From NCBI GenBank assembly GCA_014382535.1, contig JACNJN010000170.1:1-36137 (forward strand): DNA of 36,137 nucleotides, given 5' to 3'. The notes beneath the pieces are model-generated. The model ran no database searches. It was not told the origin of the DNA and saw only the letters and a program-made list of their open reading frames with translations. The translations under genes and the position numbers were made by a program. Numbering within the stretch: the stretch's first letter is position 1; every line of letters starts with the position of its first letter. The stretch comes from Candidatus Desulfolinea nitratireducens (GTDB lineage: Bacteria; Chloroflexota; Anaerolineae; Anaerolineales; Villigracilaceae). Of this stretch, positions 20,876 through 33,570 are shown in pieces.

Positions 20876-21970
20876 CTATAGGGTTTTTATTATTTCCTTT
20901 ACAAACCCCGGCCCCTGATAGACCAGACCTGTATAGATCTGTACCAGCGTCGCCCCCATGTCGAGGCGGCGTTTTGCGTCGTCTGGAGTCATGATCCCGC
21001 CTGCGCTGATAACGGGGATCTTCCCATTCACTCTTTTAAGAATTCGACTTAAAGCCGCTTCGCTCGTGGACCGGAGCGGGCTTCCGCTTAAACCGCCTGA
21101 TTCTGTCCGATGAACAGATTTCAGCCCCTCGCGGGCAAGGGTGGTATTTGTCGCGATGATCCCGTCCATATTGGTGGCAAGTATGACGTCAAGGGCGTCA
21201 TCGAGTTCCGCATCCGAGAGATCAGGAGAAAGCTTGACGAGCAAGGGTATTTTTTTGCGCAGGGTCTTCTGTTCAAATTTTCGCTGATAATCCAGTTGGG
21301 TGAGGAGTTCTTCGAGCGCGGCACGACCCTGAAGATCCCGCAATCCCTCGGTGTTTGGCGAGCTGACGTTGATCGTCAGGTAATCGGCGCAGGGGGCAAA
21401 AAGCTCGAGCAGCGAAAGATAATCGAGGACGGCTTCCTTGTTGGGGGTGGTTTTATTTTTGCCGATATTCACGCCGAGGATCATGGATGATTTGCGGCGC
21501 CGATTTGTTTCGGGGTAAAAACGTCTCAGGTTGATCACGCGGGATGATTTTTTTGACGCGTATTTGCAATAACCAAGCTTTGATAAGGCTTTGACGACTT
21601 TTGTCGCGCCTTTGGAGGGGAATCCCATCCGGTTGATGATGGCCTCATCTTCGGGTAATCGGAAGACTCGCGGCTCAGGGTTGCCCAATTGGGGGAGGGG
21701 TGTGACGGTACCGACTTCGATATGCCCAAACCCTAGCATGGAGAGGCCGCGCACGGCGGCGGCATTTTTATCGAATCCGGCCGCCAGCCCAACAGGATTG
21801 GGAAAGGTCAGCCCGAAGGCTTCAACAGGTTTGGGAGGTGCGGAGAAGATCTGTTTGAGCAGCCACTGAGCACCAAAGATATAACGGGTATTGTTGAGGG
21901 CATCCAGGCTCAGGGCGTGAATATCTTCAGGGTTTGGTTTGAAAAGAAGGGGACGAATTTTTTTATACAT
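20876..21970 (-). CDS. pyrD: Quinone-dependent dihydroorotate dehydrogenase (class 2)
   Basis: Encodes 364 residues. It oxidises dihydroorotate to orotate and passes electrons to membrane quinone. The N-terminal amphipathic segment (about 1-45) is the class 2 membrane and quinone site. FMN-binding and catalytic segments are GLAAGFDKNA (61-70), INRMGF, LGVNIGKNK, NVSSPNTEGLR with the catalytic Ser204, and VISAGGIMTPDDA. Residues about 134-162, between INRMGFPSKGA and LGVNIGKN, are basic and longer than usual in the family, and may be an insertion. A YasFM-type class 1 enzyme is excluded because catalysis uses Ser rather than Cys. It is the last pyr gene of the minus-strand run. Confidence 0.95.
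   Translation of the reverse strand: MYKKIRPLLFKPNPEDIHALSLDALNNTRYIFGAQWLLKQIFSAPPKPVEAFGLTFPNPVGLAAGFDKNAAAVRGLSMLGFGHIEVGTVTPLPQLGNPEPRVFRLPEDEAIINRMGFPSKGATKVVKALSKLGYCKYASKKSSRVINLRRFYPETNRRRKSSMILGVNIGKNKTTPNKEAVLDYLSLLELFAPCADYLTINVSSPNTEGLRDLQGRAALEELLTQLDYQRKFEQKTLRKKIPLLVKLSPDLSDAELDDALDVILATNMDGIIATNTTLAREGLKSVHRTESGGLSGSPLRSTSEAALSRILKRVNGKIPVISAGGIMTPDDAKRRLDMGATLVQIYTGLVYQGPGFVKEIIKTL
21485..21550. repeat. 9-bp direct repeats bounding extra segment in pyrD
   Basis: GGATGATTT occurs at 21485-21493 and 21542-21550, exactly 57 bases (19 codons) apart, each encoding Lys-Ser-Ser in PyrD. The segment between them makes up most of the non-conserved basic stretch. This could be a duplicated insertion target or coincidence. 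Confidence 0.5.
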
Positions 21971-24364: not shown

Positions 24365-24973
24365 TCAAGACCTCAAAAGAAATTCTCTTGCCGCATCAAT
24401 TTTTTCTTTCCCCACTTTTTCGGATTGCTCCCAAAGGTCGAGCATTTGCGGCAACGTGAAAACGCTGTGCAGGCTATAGCCATGCTCCCCCATAAAATCC
24501 ACGCCGGCAGATTGACGGTCGATCAGCACGACAATATCTTTGACTTCCAATCCGGCCTGGTTCAGTTTTTGGATGCCCTCCAGCTTGCTCCCGCCTGAGG
24601 AGATCAGATCATCGATCACAACTGCGCGTTGCCCGGCATCGTAGACGCCCTCGACCTCGACCTTGGTTCCGTATCCTTTCACCTCCTTGCGCGGATAGAT
24701 CATCGGCCACCCGCCGTGGAGGCTGATCGCCGTGCCGATCGGCATCGCCGCGTACGGCAGGGCGGCGAGTTGGTCGAACTCAAGATTGTTTAGAATTTCA
24801 GCATAGGCCGCAGCCACATCTTTGAGCAATTCCGGGAAGGCGACCAATCGGCGCAGATCAATGTAGATGGGAGATTTCTGGCCTGATTTAAGCGTGAATT
24901 TGCCAAATTTGACACAGCCAGCTTTGAGAAGGCCGTCGGCGAGAGATTGGGTGGATGAGTTTAATTTCTTCAT
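24365..24973 (-). CDS. pyrE: Orotate phosphoribosyltransferase
   Basis: Encodes 202 residues. It transfers ribose phosphate from PRPP to orotate, giving OMP. The PRPP loop is VVIDDLISSGGSKLEG, with the flexible-loop region PRKEVKGYGTK ahead of it. The N-terminal KFGKFTLKSGQKSPIYIDLRRL is the bacterial PyrE pattern. It lies 53 bases behind the D-2-hydroxyacid dehydrogenase gene and is probably part of the pyr transcript. AGGA lies six bases before the ATG. Confidence 0.95.
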   Translation of the reverse strand: MKKLNSSTQSLADGLLKAGCVKFGKFTLKSGQKSPIYIDLRRLVAFPELLKDVAAAYAEILNNLEFDQLAALPYAAMPIGTAISLHGGWPMIYPRKEVKGYGTKVEVEGVYDAGQRAVVIDDLISSGGSKLEGIQKLNQAGLEVKDIVVLIDRQSAGVDFMGEHGYSLHSVFTLPQMLDLWEQSEKVGKEKIDAAREFLLRS

Positions 24974-25026: not shown

Positions 25027-25962
25027 TTAATAACCACGCTCAAAATCAACTTGATAATTAAGTGCTTCATCTTTTATATAGCGATGATAATTCTCGATAA
25101 ACACCTGTGAAATATCTTTTGGAAGACTTGGGGCGGCTGTGTGGAAAGTTATCCACAGGTTAGGCGTTGTCCAAAAGGGATGTTCTTTGGGCAAAGGTTC
25201 TTTGTCAAAGACATCCAAAACTGCGCCTGCAATCTTTTCTTGTTCCAAAGCTGCTTGTAATGCTTCATCGTCTACGGCACTGCCACGTCCGACATTGATA
25301 AATATAGCGGTTTTGGGTAAGGCATCAAAAACCGAAGCATCTAAAAGTTTTTGTGTCTCCGGGGTGTTGGGGAAAATGTTTACGAGATAGTCCACGCCGC
25401 ACGCAAACTCTATCAGATCATCGTGATGGTACACATCCACATCGGGGCTGGATTGGCTGGAACGTGTGTAACCATGCACGATCATCCCAAAATGTTTGGC
25501 TGTTTTGGCAACATGCGCGCCAATTGACCCGACGCCCAGCAACCCGATGGTCTTGTCGCGCAAAGAGCCGGTATCGCTACCATCCCAACTTTTTTTGGCC
25601 TGTAACTGATGGTGTTTAAAGATCTGCCTTTCATGGAAAAGCAGATATCCAAAAACATATTCAGCCATCAATTCACCGAAGACGCCGCGTGCATTGGTCA
25701 GAACATAATCGCGACGCAGGGAGGGGAGAAGAAGCAACTCCACACCTGCCGACAAGGTTTGCACCCAGCGCAATTTCGCCAGGGACGGAAGTAAATCGCG
25801 TATCAGGGAGGGGTAGCCCAGCACGATTTCGCACTGATTGGCAATTTTGGCTTTGACATCTGCATTTTTGAAAGCAAATATCTCAAGGTTTGGTAGCTTC
25901 GCAGCTTGGATCAAATTTTCGTATTGCTCCGCTCTATCGGAAAGTATGAGTAGTTTTGGCAT
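25027..25962 (-). CDS. D-2-hydroxyacid dehydrogenase (NAD-dependent)
   Basis: Encodes 311 residues. The nucleotide site is GLLGVGSIGAH (about 140-150). Catalytic residues are Arg226 in INVGRGS, Glu255 in DKEPLP and His274 in ITFHTAAPS. It is closer to the short glyoxylate/hydroxypyruvate-reductase-like group than to SerA, as no ACT domain is present. The substrate is unknown. Its ATG overlaps the pyrF TGA by one base (TGATG), so it is translated together with pyrF even though it has no obvious pyrimidine role. Confidence 0.92.
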   Translation of the reverse strand: MPKLLILSDRAEQYENLIQAAKLPNLEIFAFKNADVKAKIANQCEIVLGYPSLIRDLLPSLAKLRWVQTLSAGVELLLLPSLRRDYVLTNARGVFGELMAEYVFGYLLFHERQIFKHHQLQAKKSWDGSDTGSLRDKTIGLLGVGSIGAHVAKTAKHFGMIVHGYTRSSQSSPDVDVYHHDDLIEFACGVDYLVNIFPNTPETQKLLDASVFDALPKTAIFINVGRGSAVDDEALQAALEQEKIAGAVLDVFDKEPLPKEHPFWTTPNLWITFHTAAPSLPKDISQVFIENYHRYIKDEALNYQVDFERGY

Positions 25963-26810
25963 CAGTATCCAATCTCTCGTTTGATATTGGCGATCTCATC
26001 CCGCAATTCAGCCGCGGCTCTCTTCGGGCTTTCAGCCCTTGCAATTGAGCGCGAGACGTTTATCAGCATGCCCTTGCCATCTTTACGGAGACCGGCCTTG
26101 AGCGCGGTCTCGAGGTCACCGCCCTGTGCGCCGACGCCGGGTGCCAGGAACCATAGGTCTGGCGCGGCAGCCCGGACCTTGGCTAATGCCTCCGGTTGAG
26201 TCGCGCCGACAACGAGTCCGATATTATTGGCAGTATTCCAGGATTGGGCGAGGTGGGCAACGTGTTCGTATAATGCCCTCACCCTTTGTCCCTCTCCCTC
26301 AGGGAGAGGGGTTGGGGTGAGGGATAAGTCCTGGAAATCCTTCGCCCCTGGATTACTCGTCTTGCATAATAGAAATGCGCCTTTCTCAGGATAGCCTAAA
26401 AAGGGATCAATCGAATCTTTACCCAGATAAGGATTAAGCGTGATCGCATCCGCGCCGAGATGCTCAAAGGTGGATTTAGCGTAAGCCTCTGCTGTTGAGG
26501 CGATATCGCCGCGTTTGGCATCCAGGATGACGGGGATCATCGAGCCGAGCTTTTTTGATTCTTCGCCAATGGCTTCAATGAGCTGCTTGAGGGCCGTCCA
26601 GCCTTCGGCGCCGAAGAATTCGAAGAAGGCCGCGTTGGGTTTAAAGGCGGAGGCGTAGGTCGATGTCTCTCGGACAATCCGCAAGCTGAAATCAAGGGCG
26701 GCCTCGGCTGTGGGAGAGTCGAGGTCGGCAAGATGAGGATCGAGTCCGATGCAGAGCAGGGATGAGCAATCATCCACACGTCGTTCTAAAAATGAGAAGA
26801 AAGTTTCCAT
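25962..26810 (-). CDS. pyrF: Orotidine 5'-phosphate decarboxylase (long bacterial type)
   Basis: Encodes 282 residues. It decarboxylates OMP to UMP. The catalytic cluster is Asp97-x-Lys99-x2-Asp102 in ILDAKRGDI. FKPNAAFFEFFGAEGW, LNPYLGKDSIDPF, GATQPEAL and APGVGAQGG are typical of the roughly 270-residue type. Residues 163-178 (SLTPTPLPEGEGQRVR) are extra and come from a palindromic repeat. I chose the ATG at 26810 because similarity starts there; no clear ribosome binding site is seen. A GTG at 26852 opens a longer frame. Confidence 0.95.
   Translation of the reverse strand: METFFSFLERRVDDCSSLLCIGLDPHLADLDSPTAEAALDFSLRIVRETSTYASAFKPNAAFFEFFGAEGWTALKQLIEAIGEESKKLGSMIPVILDAKRGDIASTAEAYAKSTFEHLGADAITLNPYLGKDSIDPFLGYPEKGAFLLCKTSNPGAKDFQDLSLTPTPLPEGEGQRVRALYEHVAHLAQSWNTANNIGLVVGATQPEALAKVRAAAPDLWFLAPGVGAQGGDLETALKAGLRKDGKGMLINVSRSIARAESPKRAAAELRDEIANIKREIGY
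26276..26323. repeat. 48-bp palindrome inside pyrF, in frame
   Basis: CCCTCACCC and CCCTCTCCC followed by their complements GGGAGAGGG and GGGTGAGGG, with short spacers. Its length is exactly 16 codons, and it encodes the LTPTPLPEGEGQRVR peptide. A partial relative lies at 15315-15348. Confidence 0.85.
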
Positions 26811-26869
26811 AATTTTGATGGGTAAAAAGTGAAACGTGAGCAAATGCTTCACGCATCACTCTTCACGAT

Positions 26870-27853
26870 TCAGGCTTTTCCCAATACCATCGCCAGCAGC
26901 GCCATCCTGACATATAGTCCATATTCCATCTGAAGGAAATAGGCGGCGCGGGGATCGGTGTCGAAGTCGGGGCTGATCTCTCCAACGCGTGGCAGGGGGT
27001 GCATGACGATCATTTCCTGTTTGGCAGCTTTCATGATCTCGGGATTGACGACAAAGGAGCCAGCCACCTTCTCATAATCGGCGGGATTTTCGAAGCGTTC
27101 CTTTTGGACGCGGGTGACATAGAGCACGTCGGTTTCGGGGAGGACTTCCTCTAGGGTAGTGTACTCGGTTTGAGGGATATTTTTTGCAGAAACTTCGTCC
27201 ATCACATCTTTGGGCATGCGCAGGATCTCGGGGGAGACGTAATTGAGCTTGACGTCGAAAAGGGTCAACAGACGGGCCAGTGAGTGGACGGTGCGGCCAT
27301 ATTTCAGGTCGCCGAGCATGGTGATCGTCAGGCCATCCACTTTGCCAGCACCGAGTTCTTCAAAAATCGTGAAAAGATCCAGCAGTGCCTGGGTTGGATG
27401 CTCGCCGACGCCGTCGCCCGCATTCAGCACGGGTTTTTCAGCTGCTTCCGCGGCAATCGCCGCCGAGCCAACTTCGGGATGGCGCAAAACGATCACATCC
27501 GTATAGCATTCCAGCGTGCGGATGGTATCGGGCAGGCTCTCGCCCTTTGAAACCGAGGAGTATTTGACCTCGTTGATCGCCACAACGCTCCCGCCCAATC
27601 GCTGCATGGCGGCCATAAAGGATGAGGCCGTACGCGTGGAGGGTTCGTAGAACAGGTTGGCCAAAATTTTGCCTTTGAGCAGATCGAATGTGCCAACGCG
27701 CTCGACCATCCCGCGCATCTCGTGGGCTACGCCGAAGATGTATTCCAGATCGGCGCGGCTGAACTGCTTGACCGAGAGGATATCTTTGCCGTACCACTCC
27801 GCGTGGGTGTTGTCGCCAAAGGGCAGGTGGGGGGATTGGGATTCAGTGGGCAT
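26870..27853 (-). CDS. pyrB: Aspartate carbamoyltransferase, catalytic chain
   Basis: Encodes 327 residues. It joins carbamoyl phosphate and aspartate, the first committed pyrimidine step. The carbamoyl-phosphate site FYEPSTRT lies at 68-75, [16 protein letters not shown] is the 80s loop, and [12 protein letters not shown] and HPLPRVGEI complete the active site. No regulatory pyrI chain is next to it. It is followed by pyrF after 59 bases and preceded by the lipoprotein gene. AGGAG lies eight to nine bases before the ATG. Confidence 0.96.
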
Positions 27854-29730: not shown

Positions 29731-30792
29731 TCAATCCTGCTTTGACGATTTTTCGTCATGCTCATGCCTGTGATGGATATCAGGCATGTGGTCGTGTTCA
29801 TGCTCTTCAGCAAGATGCTGATGTTCGCCCGCATGAGCTGCTGTGGCGAGGTCATGTCCGTGCGCTGGATCATCATGTCCATGTCCGTGCTCATGGAGTA
29901 AAGCCGTATGAATATGTGTATGCTGATGCTCTTCATTGACCAATAAATAGGCCCCACCCAGCATCAATAGGGTCGCAAATACAAAAGCGATTGTAGGCAT
30001 TTCGCTAAAAATGACAATAGAAAGCAACACACCTGCAAGTGGGGATGTTCCATATAATGCGCTGGTGCGCGCAGCGCCCAATCCACGCATCGAACGGATG
30101 AAGAGAAATGTGCTCAACCCATAGCTGATCCAGCCAAGCAGCAGGGTCCACAAGATCGAAACGAGGGGGGGAATCTGTTCGCCGAGGCTGAGTGCCAGAA
30201 AAAACGAGAATATGCCCGCGACCAACCCTTTCCACGCAACAATGGATAGGGGGTCTTTTCCGGAAATATTGCGGGTGAAATTATTATCCACACCCCAAAG
30301 CGTGGTTGCCAGCAATACCCCAAGGGCTCCCAACGATAGCCCCCATCCGCTTTCAAAATTTGTAGAGATAATGATGCTTGCCAATGTAATCACTAAAATC
30401 GCACTCCACGCGCGGCGGCTGATCGCCTCTCTAAAGACGAGCATCGCGATCAGGGTTGTTGCCGCTCCCTCGAAATTGAGCAGCAGCGATGCGCTGGAGG
30501 CGGGCGTTTTTTCCAAACTGAGCATCAAAATGATCGGCGCAGCGATCCCGCCAGAGATGATCGCGCCAGCCAGCCATTTAATATCCGTTTTACGGATCCC
30601 CGCTTCTTTTCCTTTTGATGGTTGCGCAAATTTGATCAATGCGATTCCTGATCCGCTGCCAAGATAGAGAAATGCAGCCAGAAAGATAGGATTAACATCC
30701 CCCAGTAATAATTTTGAGAGTGGCGCGCTGATTCCGAAAAATAGAGCAGCTAATAATGCTTGAATGATATAGGGGAAATTATTGGATTTCAT
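29731..30792 (-). CDS. EamA/DMT-family transporter with histidine-rich tail
   Basis: Encodes 353 residues. Two EamA repeats give about ten membrane helices (up to about 285), with FFGISAPLSKLLL opening and GTSPLAGVLLSIVIFSE in the second half. The last 65 residues are a hydrophilic tail with some 20 His plus Asp and Glu (HEHGHGHDD, HEHDHMPDIHHRHEHD). Such tails usually bind Zn, Ni or Co, so metal export or metal-regulated transport is a reasonable guess. Plain EamA proteins carry metabolites. It lies five bases after pyrC and three before the hydrolase gene, so it sits within the pyr transcript. Confidence 0.88.
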   Translation of the reverse strand: MKSNNFPYIIQALLAALFFGISAPLSKLLLGDVNPIFLAAFLYLGSGSGIALIKFAQPSKGKEAGIRKTDIKWLAGAIISGGIAAPIILMLSLEKTPASSASLLLNFEGAATTLIAMLVFREAISRRAWSAILVITLASIIISTNFESGWGLSLGALGVLLATTLWGVDNNFTRNISGKDPLSIVAWKGLVAGIFSFFLALSLGEQIPPLVSILWTLLLGWISYGLSTFLFIRSMRGLGAARTSALYGTSPLAGVLLSIVIFSEMPTIAFVFATLLMLGGAYLLVNEEHQHTHIHTALLHEHGHGHDDPAHGHDLATAAHAGEHQHLAEEHEHDHMPDIHHRHEHDEKSSKQD

Positions 30793-30797
30793 CTGCT

Positions 30798-31901
30798 CTA
30801 CTCTCTAATATTTGAACCAAAACCCTTTTTAGCCAAAATCTTTCCATCTTTAACCACCTCTTTCCCGCGGAGGAGAACCCGTGTCACGCGCCCTTTGACT
30901 TGCCAGCCTTCGAAGGGCGTCCAGCCGCATTTGGTGAATTGCTCCGCACTACGGATCTCATACCGGGCATCCTCATCCACCTCGATCCAGGTCTCGGGTT
31001 GATCCGGTAGATTGAAGATCCGTTTGGGGTTGGTATGCATCTTTTCGATGAGGTCGTCAATCCTAAGGCGGCCCTCATCTACAGCTGTGAGCAGCAGCGG
31101 AAGCGCCGTCTCCAGCCCCGGAAATCCCGGTGGGGGATTCTCGGAATCTTTCTCTTCAAGGGTATGTGGTGCGTGGTCAGTAGCGATGCAATCGATGACA
31201 TCGAGGTTTGCCCAGAGGGCATCCACGTCGGCTTGGGTGGCGAGGCGTGGGCGGACTTCGAGACGCCCCCCCCTAGCCCCCCCCGTAAACGGGGGGGGGA
31301 TGAGGGTTTCCCCACCGCTCGCGGGGGGGACGGAAGAGGGGGCGGTTAGAAGTAAATGATGCGGAGCAACTTCGCAGGTGACTTTGATTCCCTTTTCCTT
31401 GGCAGCCTTGATCAGCAAGACTTCTTCCTTTAGTGAAATATGGGCAATATGGACGGGACGATCATAGATCGCAGCGAATAAAATTCCCGCGGCCATTGTT
31501 CGGGATTCTGAGTGCAGGACAATAGGGAGATTTTTGGGGAAGCTGGCAAAATGTGCCATCCAGAGAGACATATCATCCAAACGGAGTTCGCCAAAGGTCG
31601 AGTCGAGATACATCTTTAGCCCGGCAGCGCGCGGCGCCAGCTCTGCGGCGAGTGAGGCATTATCGGGTCCGGCGCCGAGGAATTGAGCGTAATCACAGCG
31701 CGCTTTTTCTTTGGCGGAAGCAAGCCCAAGGTCGAGGGTCTTTTCGTCAAATATTGGCGGAGTGGTATTCGGCATGGCAAGAATCGTGGTGAATCCACCC
31801 GCCAACGCGGCCTGGGTCGCTGTATCCCAATCTTCTTTATGCGTGGCGCCAGGTTCGCGAACATGAACGTGGGGGTCAATTAATCCGGGGAGTTTTATCA
31901 T
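30798..31901 (-). CDS. pyrC: Dihydroorotase, CAD-like short type
   Basis: Encodes 367 residues. It closes carbamoyl-aspartate to dihydroorotate. Zinc and catalytic residues are His11 and His13 in DPHVHVREPGATHKEDW, carbamylated Lys96 in AAGLKMY, His130, His154 in HIAH, and Asp242 in TDHAPHTLEEK. The start at the first histidine motif, without an N-terminal beta domain, and the PPPGFPGLETALPLLLTAV segment resemble the dihydroorotase domain of CAD. Residues 188-213, just after the APHHL motif, are a Pro/Gly-rich insert encoded by a repeat. The ribosome binding site is poor (AAAAAAAGAACC). Confidence 0.94.
   Translation of the reverse strand: MIKLPGLIDPHVHVREPGATHKEDWDTATQAALAGGFTTILAMPNTTPPIFDEKTLDLGLASAKEKARCDYAQFLGAGPDNASLAAELAPRAAGLKMYLDSTFGELRLDDMSLWMAHFASFPKNLPIVLHSESRTMAAGILFAAIYDRPVHIAHISLKEEVLLIKAAKEKGIKVTCEVAPHHLLLTAPSSVPPASGGETLIPPPFTGGARGGRLEVRPRLATQADVDALWANLDVIDCIATDHAPHTLEEKDSENPPPGFPGLETALPLLLTAVDEGRLRIDDLIEKMHTNPKRIFNLPDQPETWIEVDEDARYEIRSAEQFTKCGWTPFEGWQVKGRVTRVLLRGKEVVKDGKILAKKGFGSNIRE
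31263..31345. repeat. GC-rich double-hairpin repeat inside pyrC, in frame
   Basis: Runs of C and G form CCCCCCCCGTAAACGGGGGGGG and then TCCCCACCGCTCGCGGGGGGGA, with outer CGCCCCC / GGGGGCG arms. It belongs to the CTCCCC family of 16165 and 19161. It encodes the PPASGGETLIPPPFTGGARGG peptide. Long homopolymer runs here invite both real slippage and sequencing error. Confidence 0.8.
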
Positions 31902-32009: not shown

Positions 32010-33359
32010 CTATTCTGAAGGTTTGAAGATCACGAAAACCAGATTCATCAGTATACCGATGATGGCTGAAAAGACGATAGCCGGAATGCCAGCCGGGAAA
32101 ACGCCGGGGATGACGAAGGGGAAGAGACCATCGGGCAGCGCCAACGCGCCACCAATGCCGGTGATGATTATTGTTGCCCCAACTGCCAGATTTGCTGGTG
32201 AAAACAAATCTACATTTTCAGACATTTTAAGGGCAATGCCTTGCATGGCGATTACGCCAAACAGATAAATGGCTAAACCACCTGTGACTGCGACAGGGAC
32301 GCTGTTGACGATGCCTGCTAGTTTTCCTATAAAACCAAGCAGGATTGCAAAGATACCAGCCGTGATCAAGACGGGCACGGAATAGTTTCGGGTGATTGCC
32401 ATCAGCGAATTATTTTCACCATAGTTGGTGCCTGCTGCGCCACCAAGGAAGCCGACGACCATATCATCGACACCATCGGCAACCAGATTCAAACCGATCA
32501 GCTCTTTGATATTGAGCGGATCGCGTTTGAGTTGCTCGGCCAGGGCATCTATGTAAAGACTCATCTGGTAAAGATGGGCAGTTGATTCCGGGATGGTCGC
32601 GATAGCGATCAAGGCAATGCTGATCACCAAGCCCCACGCGTTCGGATCTGTGAAGGCCGGGAGGGTGATATTCGGCATGCGCACCCAGGCGGCGTTAGTA
32701 ATAACGCTAAAATTTACAATACCGAGCGCGGCAGAAAGCAAATATCCAACCAACGCACCAAGTAGAATAGGCAGCATGCCAAGTAATCCTTTGCCACGCA
32801 AATAAACTGAAAAGAGTACGGTGGCAATCAGGGTAACAAAGGCAACCAACCAGTTTGCAGAAGCCATACCGAGTGCTGCACCAGCCAGCGCCACACCAAT
32901 GACAATGGCGACTGAGCCGGTTACGATGGGTGGTAAAATTTTATCGAGCGCAGCTTTGCCGATTTTCATAATGAGAAGACCGATCAGGATATTAAATAAC
33001 CCTGTTCCCATAATACCGACTTGCACCAGGCGAACACCTTCTGGGCAGTAGAAAGTATTGGGATCGCTGAAGCAGTCACCAGCGTAGAGTGACATGGCGG
33101 TTACGACCACGGCTATATATGAAAATGACGATCCATAATACATTGGGATTTTGCGTTTCGAGACCATGAGCGCAATGATCGTACCAATGCCTGATGCCAA
33201 CAGCGTCACACCGACGTCAAACTTGGTCAGGATGGCAACAAGGACTGTGGCCGGGAACATGGTTAGTACCTGTTGGAAACCAAGCGATAGCATGGCTCCG
33301 ACGGGAGGTTTATCTCCCGGCAGATAACCTTGAACAGCGGATGTTTTTGTGGCAGTCAT
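32010..33359 (-). CDS. uraA: Uracil permease, NCS2 family
   Basis: Encodes 449 residues with about 14 membrane helices. Segments diagnostic of uracil-type NCS2 carriers are IPESTAHLYQMS (about 262-273), with the transport Glu, and GAAGTNYGENNSLMAITRNYS (about 309-329). A loop with two cysteines (DCFSDPNTFYCPEG) follows helix 3. It imports uracil, probably with protons. Xanthine or broad uracil/xanthine specificity is less likely given the NYGEN motif and the pyr neighbours. AAGGAG lies six bases before the ATG. The leader contains a promoter, a short ORF and a terminator hairpin. Confidence 0.93.
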   Translation of the reverse strand: MTATKTSAVQGYLPGDKPPVGAMLSLGFQQVLTMFPATVLVAILTKFDVGVTLLASGIGTIIALMVSKRKIPMYYGSSFSYIAVVVTAMSLYAGDCFSDPNTFYCPEGVRLVQVGIMGTGLFNILIGLLIMKIGKAALDKILPPIVTGSVAIVIGVALAGAALGMASANWLVAFVTLIATVLFSVYLRGKGLLGMLPILLGALVGYLLSAALGIVNFSVITNAAWVRMPNITLPAFTDPNAWGLVISIALIAIATIPESTAHLYQMSLYIDALAEQLKRDPLNIKELIGLNLVADGVDDMVVGFLGGAAGTNYGENNSLMAITRNYSVPVLITAGIFAILLGFIGKLAGIVNSVPVAVTGGLAIYLFGVIAMQGIALKMSENVDLFSPANLAVGATIIITGIGGALALPDGLFPFVIPGVFPAGIPAIVFSAIIGILMNLVFVIFKPSE

Positions 33360-33426
33360 TCTTTCTCCTTATGGATTAGCGCACACTCAGATAGAGCATG
33401 TTTTTACCTACACCGCATGCAGGTAT

Positions 33427-33454
33427 AAAAAAAGAGAGCCGCGAAAGGCTCTCT
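33427..33454 (-). terminator. Attenuator-type terminator in the uraA leader
   Basis: On the minus strand AGAGAGCC pairs perfectly with GGCTCTCT around TTTCGC, followed by seven T. It lies about 70 bases upstream of the uraA ATG and downstream of the promoter, so it must be read through for uraA to be made. Confidence 0.8.
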
Positions 33455-33533
33455 AATGAACGAAAGGAAAAGCAGGCTCGGCCCCAATGGGCGAGGCGGC
33501 TTGTGGAGTTATGTGAAAGGGATACTTAACCAT
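33453..33533 (-). CDS. Candidate 26-residue leader peptide of uraA
   Basis: The ATG lies ten bases past the -10 box, so the message would start at or only a few bases before it. The frame (MVKYPFHITPQ...AFPFVH) ends in a TAG that overlaps the first bases of the terminator stem. The last codons are T-rich on the minus strand (GCTTTTCCTTTCGTTCAT). There is no room for a ribosome binding site, so translation would be leaderless. The arrangement resembles the pyrL leader of enterobacterial pyrBI. Confidence 0.5.
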   Translation of the reverse strand: MVKYPFHITPQAASPIGAEPAFPFVH

Positions 33534-33542
33534 ATCGTTGTG

Positions 33543-33570
33543 ATTATATGCAAGCTGATGTTCTTGTCAA
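33543..33570 (-). promoter_or_regulatory. Consensus sigma-70 promoter of uraA
   Basis: TTGACA (33570-33565) and TATAAT (33548-33543) are both perfect consensus with 16 bases between. The predicted start at about 33536 gives a leader of about 175 bases. Confidence 0.85.

Follow-up and report, generated by a model that had tools for sequence, protein, structure and literature searches.

A cluster of pyrimidine genes occupies the minus strand of the window, the 36,137-nt stretch of Candidatus Desulfolinea nitratireducens DNA analysed here (contig JACNJN010000170.1), and is headed by a short leader 5′ of uraA (Table 1). After uraA, the same-strand order runs through pyrC, a DMT-type transporter, a hydrolase, a lipoprotein-like gene, pyrB and pyrF, followed by a hydroxyacid dehydrogenase, pyrE and, further on, pyrD; the downstream pyr genes are probably co-transcribed from the leader. 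The permease is closest to uracil permease models but scores under their curated cut-offs, so its specificity for uracil rests partly on gene context. The DMT-type transporter of the cluster (29731-30792, minus strand) carries a long C-terminal tail rich in His, Asp and Glu that resembles metal-binding sequences.

Read along the minus strand, the leader begins with a promoter and an AUG that opens an ORF of 26 codons; a T-rich tract and then an intrinsic terminator follow. All of the features named in an earlier sequence-only reading of this DNA were found exactly where it had placed them, including the promoter described as a perfect consensus, whose 12/12 match is the only one between 31900 and 34000, and the ORF stop said to overlap the base of the stem, where TAG shares the first two stem bases. 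The stem and loop read AGAGAGCC-TTTCGC-GGCTCTCT (33454-33433) and are followed by T down to 33427. The hairpin was also considered as the terminator of an upstream gene, which is ruled out because a promoter stands 88 nt upstream of it and because it is linked to uraA or pyrC. In the window, a second stable hairpin, TACCTGCAT-GCG-GTGTAGGTA (33360-33426, minus strand), separates the terminator from the ribosome-binding site of uraA.

Table 1. Coordinates of the leader elements and pyrimidine genes in the window.
Feature	Position	Strand	Remarks
-35 hexamer TTGACA	33565..33570	-	Kept, with small variation, in 45/45 aligned uraA leaders
-10 hexamer TATAAT	33543..33548	-	16-nt spacer to -35; found in every uraA leader
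Putative transcription start, leaderless	33533..33536	-	0-3 nt 5′ of AUG, from promoter spacing
Leader ORF MVKYPFHITPQAASPIGAEPAFPFVH, 26 codons, TAG at 33455-33453	33453..33533	-	Frame kept in 99 leaders
U-rich tract GCTTTTCCTTTCGTT	33459..33473	-	Proposed UTP-dependent pause region
Intrinsic terminator (attenuator): 8-bp stem, 6-nt loop, seven T	33427..33454	-	
AAGGAG, ribosome-binding site of uraA	33365..33370	-	
uraA-like NCS2 uracil/nucleobase permease	32010..33359	-	First regulated gene
pyrC, dihydroorotase	30798..31901	-	Relatives carry leader directly 5′ of pyrC
pyrB, aspartate carbamoyltransferase	26870..27853	-	
pyrF, orotidine-5′-phosphate decarboxylase	25962..26852	-	
pyrE, orotate phosphoribosyltransferase	24365..24973	-	
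pyrD, dihydroorotate dehydrogenase (quinone)	20876..21970	-	

The leader recurs throughout the family to which the organism belongs. Permease homologues and their upstream DNA were taken from 80 and then 152 genomes, giving 46 uraA leaders that all share the same layout, and a covariance model built from these leaders was used to search genomes. The model detected no second copy in the organism's own 3.65-Mb genome (next best E-value 0.22, versus 6e-9). Within the family, 95 of 152 genomes carry the element, as do 23 of 26 genera, and 61 of the 88 good assemblies are positive. A sample of the class yielded 20 positives among 396 genomes, two of them from other families, and a sample of 400 genomes of the phylum yielded 19, none outside the order. 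The gene that follows is uraA or pyrC in every case where it could be read: 52 of 58 further model matches lie before pyrC and one before a uraA homologue, with five unresolved in the stretch read. Seven genomes carry two copies, and in at least three of these (G026, G045 and G107) a single contig holds both, one copy preceding uraA and the other pyrC. When 84,980 species genomes were searched for exact copies of one hairpin variant, without regard to the ORF, 22 matches were returned, all in Anaerolineae/Chloroflexota records; every one of them has the promoter and an ORF that is leaderless by promoter spacing, and lies 5′ of uraA or pyrC. Viral contigs gave no match to the exact hairpin.

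Presence of the leader separates two kinds of permease locus. As read by eye, pyrC follows directly after a leader-bearing uraA in 21 of the 29 loci with enough sequence, versus none of about 18 uraA homologues that lack the leader, at least nine of which stand beside xanthine-dehydrogenase-type genes; given these neighbours and the missing pyrC, the leader-less homologues are probably purine permeases. Nine permeases that are ~69-78% identical to the window uraA (L003, L005, L006, L007, L013, L037, L038, L042 and L050) adjoin xanthine-dehydrogenase/CoxM-type genes and lack the leader, and several of them have an upstream segment containing AGGAGGTG and resembling a further conserved leader. 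In the window's own genus, the leader is also found 5′ of pyrC, with recognisably related peptides (own SPIGAEPAFPFVH, G003 SPTGAEPAIYFIH). Since matches away from uraA precede pyrC, in this genus as elsewhere, the leader seems to be the older partner of pyrC and uraA a frequent insertion behind the leader.

The reading frame of the leader is kept open up to the hairpin. None of 99 distinct leaders has an in-frame stop before the hairpin region (before position -13 relative to the stem), compared with 59 and 49 in frames +1 and +2; the leaders are related and such counts are not independent events, which makes the other two frames the fairest control. No leader that keeps the hairpin and has lost the ORF, the case singled out as contrary in the sequence-only reading, occurs among these 99 or among the 22/22 exact-hairpin matches, and because the latter were found blind to the ORF and all carry one, that objection falls. 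The ORF stops between -13 and +14 nt of the stem in 76 of 99 leaders and in 42 of the 46 uraA leaders, for which dinucleotide shuffles predict 7.7 and the counts in frames +1 and +2 are 12 and five; in uraA leaders the stops fall in three places, namely the stem base, up to 13 bases before the stem, and the loop. One leader with a 17-nt spacer (L134) was indexed one base off in the 99-leader count, and direct reading places the end of its ORF 10 nt before the stem. Substitutions, too, show the frame evolving as coding sequence: across 19 disjoint leader pairs, codon position 3 takes 115 of the 241 substitutions (p ~3e-6), and dN/dS is ~0.34 in frame, versus 1.76 and 0.79 in the other frames. 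Translation of the ORF is very probable, with some constraint on the peptide. The stop position emphasised in the sequence-only reading is thus upheld in part: early in-frame stops are absent and three-quarters of the stops lie at the hairpin, but 23 of 99 leaders read through it. Those reading past the hairpin include four uraA leaders and 16 pyrC leaders, which counts against the pyrBI-type reading; as nearly a quarter do so, mostly before pyrC, the exact stop position is inessential, and what is kept is access of the ribosome to the 5′ arm of the hairpin. The four uraA leaders (L010, L023, L025 and L046) miss the canonical stop because the frame shifts within the T-run or close to it (L046 has about one T more than its close relatives), and these changes could reflect assembly error, polymerase slippage or true readthrough.

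The start codon lies close to the promoter. The window's own AUG (ATG at 33533) stands 9 nt past the -10 hexamer, and the distance is 8-11 nt in 99/99 distinct leaders; canonical promoter spacing would place the transcription start at ~33536-33535 and hence the AUG 2-3 nt from the 5′ end. The sequence-only reading had called the ORF leaderless and unlike pyrL, and the spacing says the same in every relative, which would make this a true difference from pyrL and not a local oddity. Other promoter-to-ATG spacings of the leaderless kind occur in the organism's genome 5′ of full genes, and leaderless genes account for ~5% in the Chloroflexi genomes where they have been detected (PMC3160421).

The end of the ORF is selected for T beyond the needs of the peptide. 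Across the 99 leaders, T peaks at 65% in the segment 20-11 nt before the stem, versus 21-35% over most of the upstream ORF. Phenylalanine is encoded by TTT over TTC at a ratio of 123:51 near the hairpin, versus 60:97 further upstream, such that TTT is preferred only near the hairpin; more generally, T- and C-ended codons in T-containing boxes number 321:99 in the tract, versus 185:193 further upstream. This preference at synonymous sites points to selection on the nucleotides themselves, and the T-rich tract proposed from the single sequence is thereby confirmed as a conserved and selected element. The window's own T-tract is less pure than that of most relatives, which counts against the pyrBI-type reading.

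The hairpin is the only conserved structure in the leader. A consensus fold of 45 aligned leaders revealed no conserved structure besides the terminator and no antiterminator. An AGAG/CUCU stem core is invariant in the 45 leaders (alignment A1, columns 130-133/154-157), while the rest of the leader diverges, and the core was also found with a generic hairpin finder. Its near-invariance exceeds the needs of termination and counts against the pyrBI-type reading.

The sequence-only reading had proposed a pyrBI-type attenuator, and this proposal is borne out as regards the terminator, the conserved, coding-type ORF tied to the hairpin, the U-tract, the lack of a competing structure and the linkage to pyrimidine genes; it departs from the model in that the ORF would be leaderless and not Shine-Dalgarno-led. 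The leader is likely to be a pyrBI-like, translation-coupled attenuator with a leaderless leader peptide, in which UTP would be the signal sensed. Transcription would begin at the AUG or within ~3 nt of it, allowing a 70S ribosome to load on the 5′ end without a Shine-Dalgarno sequence. At low UTP, RNA polymerase would slow where the ORF ends in its U-rich tract, with perhaps a second slowing in the all-pyrimidine 3′ arm and T-run (CUCUCUUUUUUU); the ribosome would close up, reach the stop at or inside the 5′ arm and block folding of the hairpin, so that uraA-pyrC, and probably the downstream pyr genes too, would be transcribed. When UTP is plentiful, the polymerase would outrun the ribosome, the hairpin would form and transcription would end. 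Stops at -13 to +14, or readthrough, place the ribosome on the 5′ arm, and as the consensus fold holds no other structure, the ribosome itself must decide the outcome. The downstream pyrimidine genes and the selected U-tract make UTP-dependent polymerase speed the natural candidate signal, as in pyrBI. In E. coli, termination fell from ~90% to <10% when translation stopped 5 bp ahead of a terminator, and it was maximal only beyond ~27 nt between stop codon and terminator (PMC4824070); at pyrBI, the terminator is prevented by a ribosome coupled to the polymerase across pyrL (PMC5021804).

Other explanations account for parts of these observations. The hairpin may contain a second sensor, in which the near-invariant stem and the pyrimidine-only 3′ arm and tail would slow polymerase at low UTP or CTP, with a contribution from the leader peptide; this extended scheme is a minority reading, and if true would describe a dual-input pyrimidine switch operating via leaderless 70S initiation, unlike pyrBI in both its signal and its ribosome loading. 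In nascent-peptide control, a pyrimidine compound would cause the leader peptide to stall its ribosome close to the hairpin, in the manner of arrest peptides, and the U-tract would be incidental. The purifying selection on the peptide (dN/dS ~0.34) lends this some weight; it is unneeded in a pure ribosome spacer and so counts against the pyrBI-type reading. Members of a sublineage also have peptide motifs in common (HQHFFGM, RDFLFEP, FKPTDFVF and MTNRF..D..PDS). However, different genera combine unrelated peptides with the same architecture, no residue after Met is invariant, and the T preference at synonymous tract sites points to the RNA or DNA level, leaving control by the peptide improbable.

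Regulation at initiation is more doubtful still. A nucleotide-sensitive choice of start site, or slippage at the promoter, would alter use of the leaderless AUG, and the variable spacing of the AUG to the -10 hexamer is in keeping with this, since a start shift of 1-2 nt would alter the 5′ end. However, UTP-dependent reiterative transcription as at carAB needs a U run (PMC6245113), which the start regions (CAATG, GATATG and AATATG) lack, and such a scheme gives no account of why the ORF end, U-tract and hairpin are conserved; initiation control is accordingly considered very unlikely. Amino-acid attenuation, with the ribosome stalled over the 5′ arm by scarcity of charged tRNA for Phe or His, has in its favour that Phe codons are common close to the hairpin, an excess that follows the T-tract, with Val, Leu, Ile and Ser codons likewise T-ended. 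With no universal codon, no run of regulatory codons, no alternative hairpin and linked genes that belong to pyrimidine metabolism, it can be given little credence. Control of the terminator by PyrR or a riboswitch is almost certainly wrong: a terminator in a pyrimidine leader and an AGAGAG with a superficial resemblance to PyrR loops speak for it, but, as the sequence-only reading had held in finding no PyrR-type site, Rfam gave no match at gathering score, and with E-values allowed up to 10 neither PyrR nor any riboswitch was matched, the leader alignment contains no conserved structure besides the terminator, and the best score for the PyrR protein model used is 23.6 bits in the organism's genome, versus a cut-off of 138.

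The UTP-sensing, translation-coupled attenuator favoured here has partial counterparts in known systems. It is closest to E. coli pyrBI/PyrL, sharing a short ORF with a U-rich stretch, an intrinsic terminator and then a pyrimidine gene, as well as the proposed blocking of the hairpin by a ribosome close behind the polymerase. In pyrL, GTTTTTCTTCCCGTT lies 5′ of the hairpin, somewhat further from it than the U-rich stretch here, and the ORF reads through the hairpin, as in 23 of the 99 leaders, whereas most ORFs of the present leaders stop at the stem. The two also differ in phylum, gene order (uraA/pyrC) and peptide, and pyrL, 44 codons long, is preceded by an untranslated region that carries a Shine-Dalgarno sequence, in contrast to an AUG that would stand at the 5′ end here; a Shine-Dalgarno-led leader peptide is a trait of the E. 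coli case and not of the mechanism. In the E. coli pyrE attenuator, the upstream gene is translated to a stop codon just before the hairpin, a similar placement achieved by a full cistron instead of a dedicated leader ORF. PyrR-dependent pyr attenuators (RF00515) likewise control termination before pyr genes, but their RNA motif is absent here and PyrR is not above its cut-off. Mycobacterial polycysteine ORFs provide a precedent for a leaderless short ORF that controls a downstream operon (Canestrari 2020, as cited in PMC13236596); they sense cysteine via Cys codons, a run of which is lacking here, where UTP is the signal suggested by the U-tract and by the genes linked to the leader.

One other attenuator-like leader was found in the organism's genome by a search for the promoter-plus-ATG pattern, 5′ of lysX. 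It is represented by L106 (own genome, C217:6339-6379, minus strand) and by L222, L223, L224 and L226 from the same genus, and combines a conserved leaderless peptide (M.ST...EAKAKPQPASAPSVIGFVGS) with a terminator (GCTCTCCGA..TCGGAGAGC). The KAKAK run of the peptide suggests lysine-responsive attenuation.

No published account of the Anaerolineae leader was found in the literature searched, which excluded most subscription journals. If the interpretation is correct, ribosome-coupled UTP attenuation, best known in E. coli, would extend to Chloroflexota, with a leaderless leader peptide replacing the Shine-Dalgarno-led one. A near-consensus promoter, a frame of 70-80 nt and a hairpin would together form a very compact switch that needs neither a protein nor a riboswitch, and the roughly one hundred natural variants in ORF end, U-tract and hairpin would make the geometry of ribosome-polymerase coupling testable.
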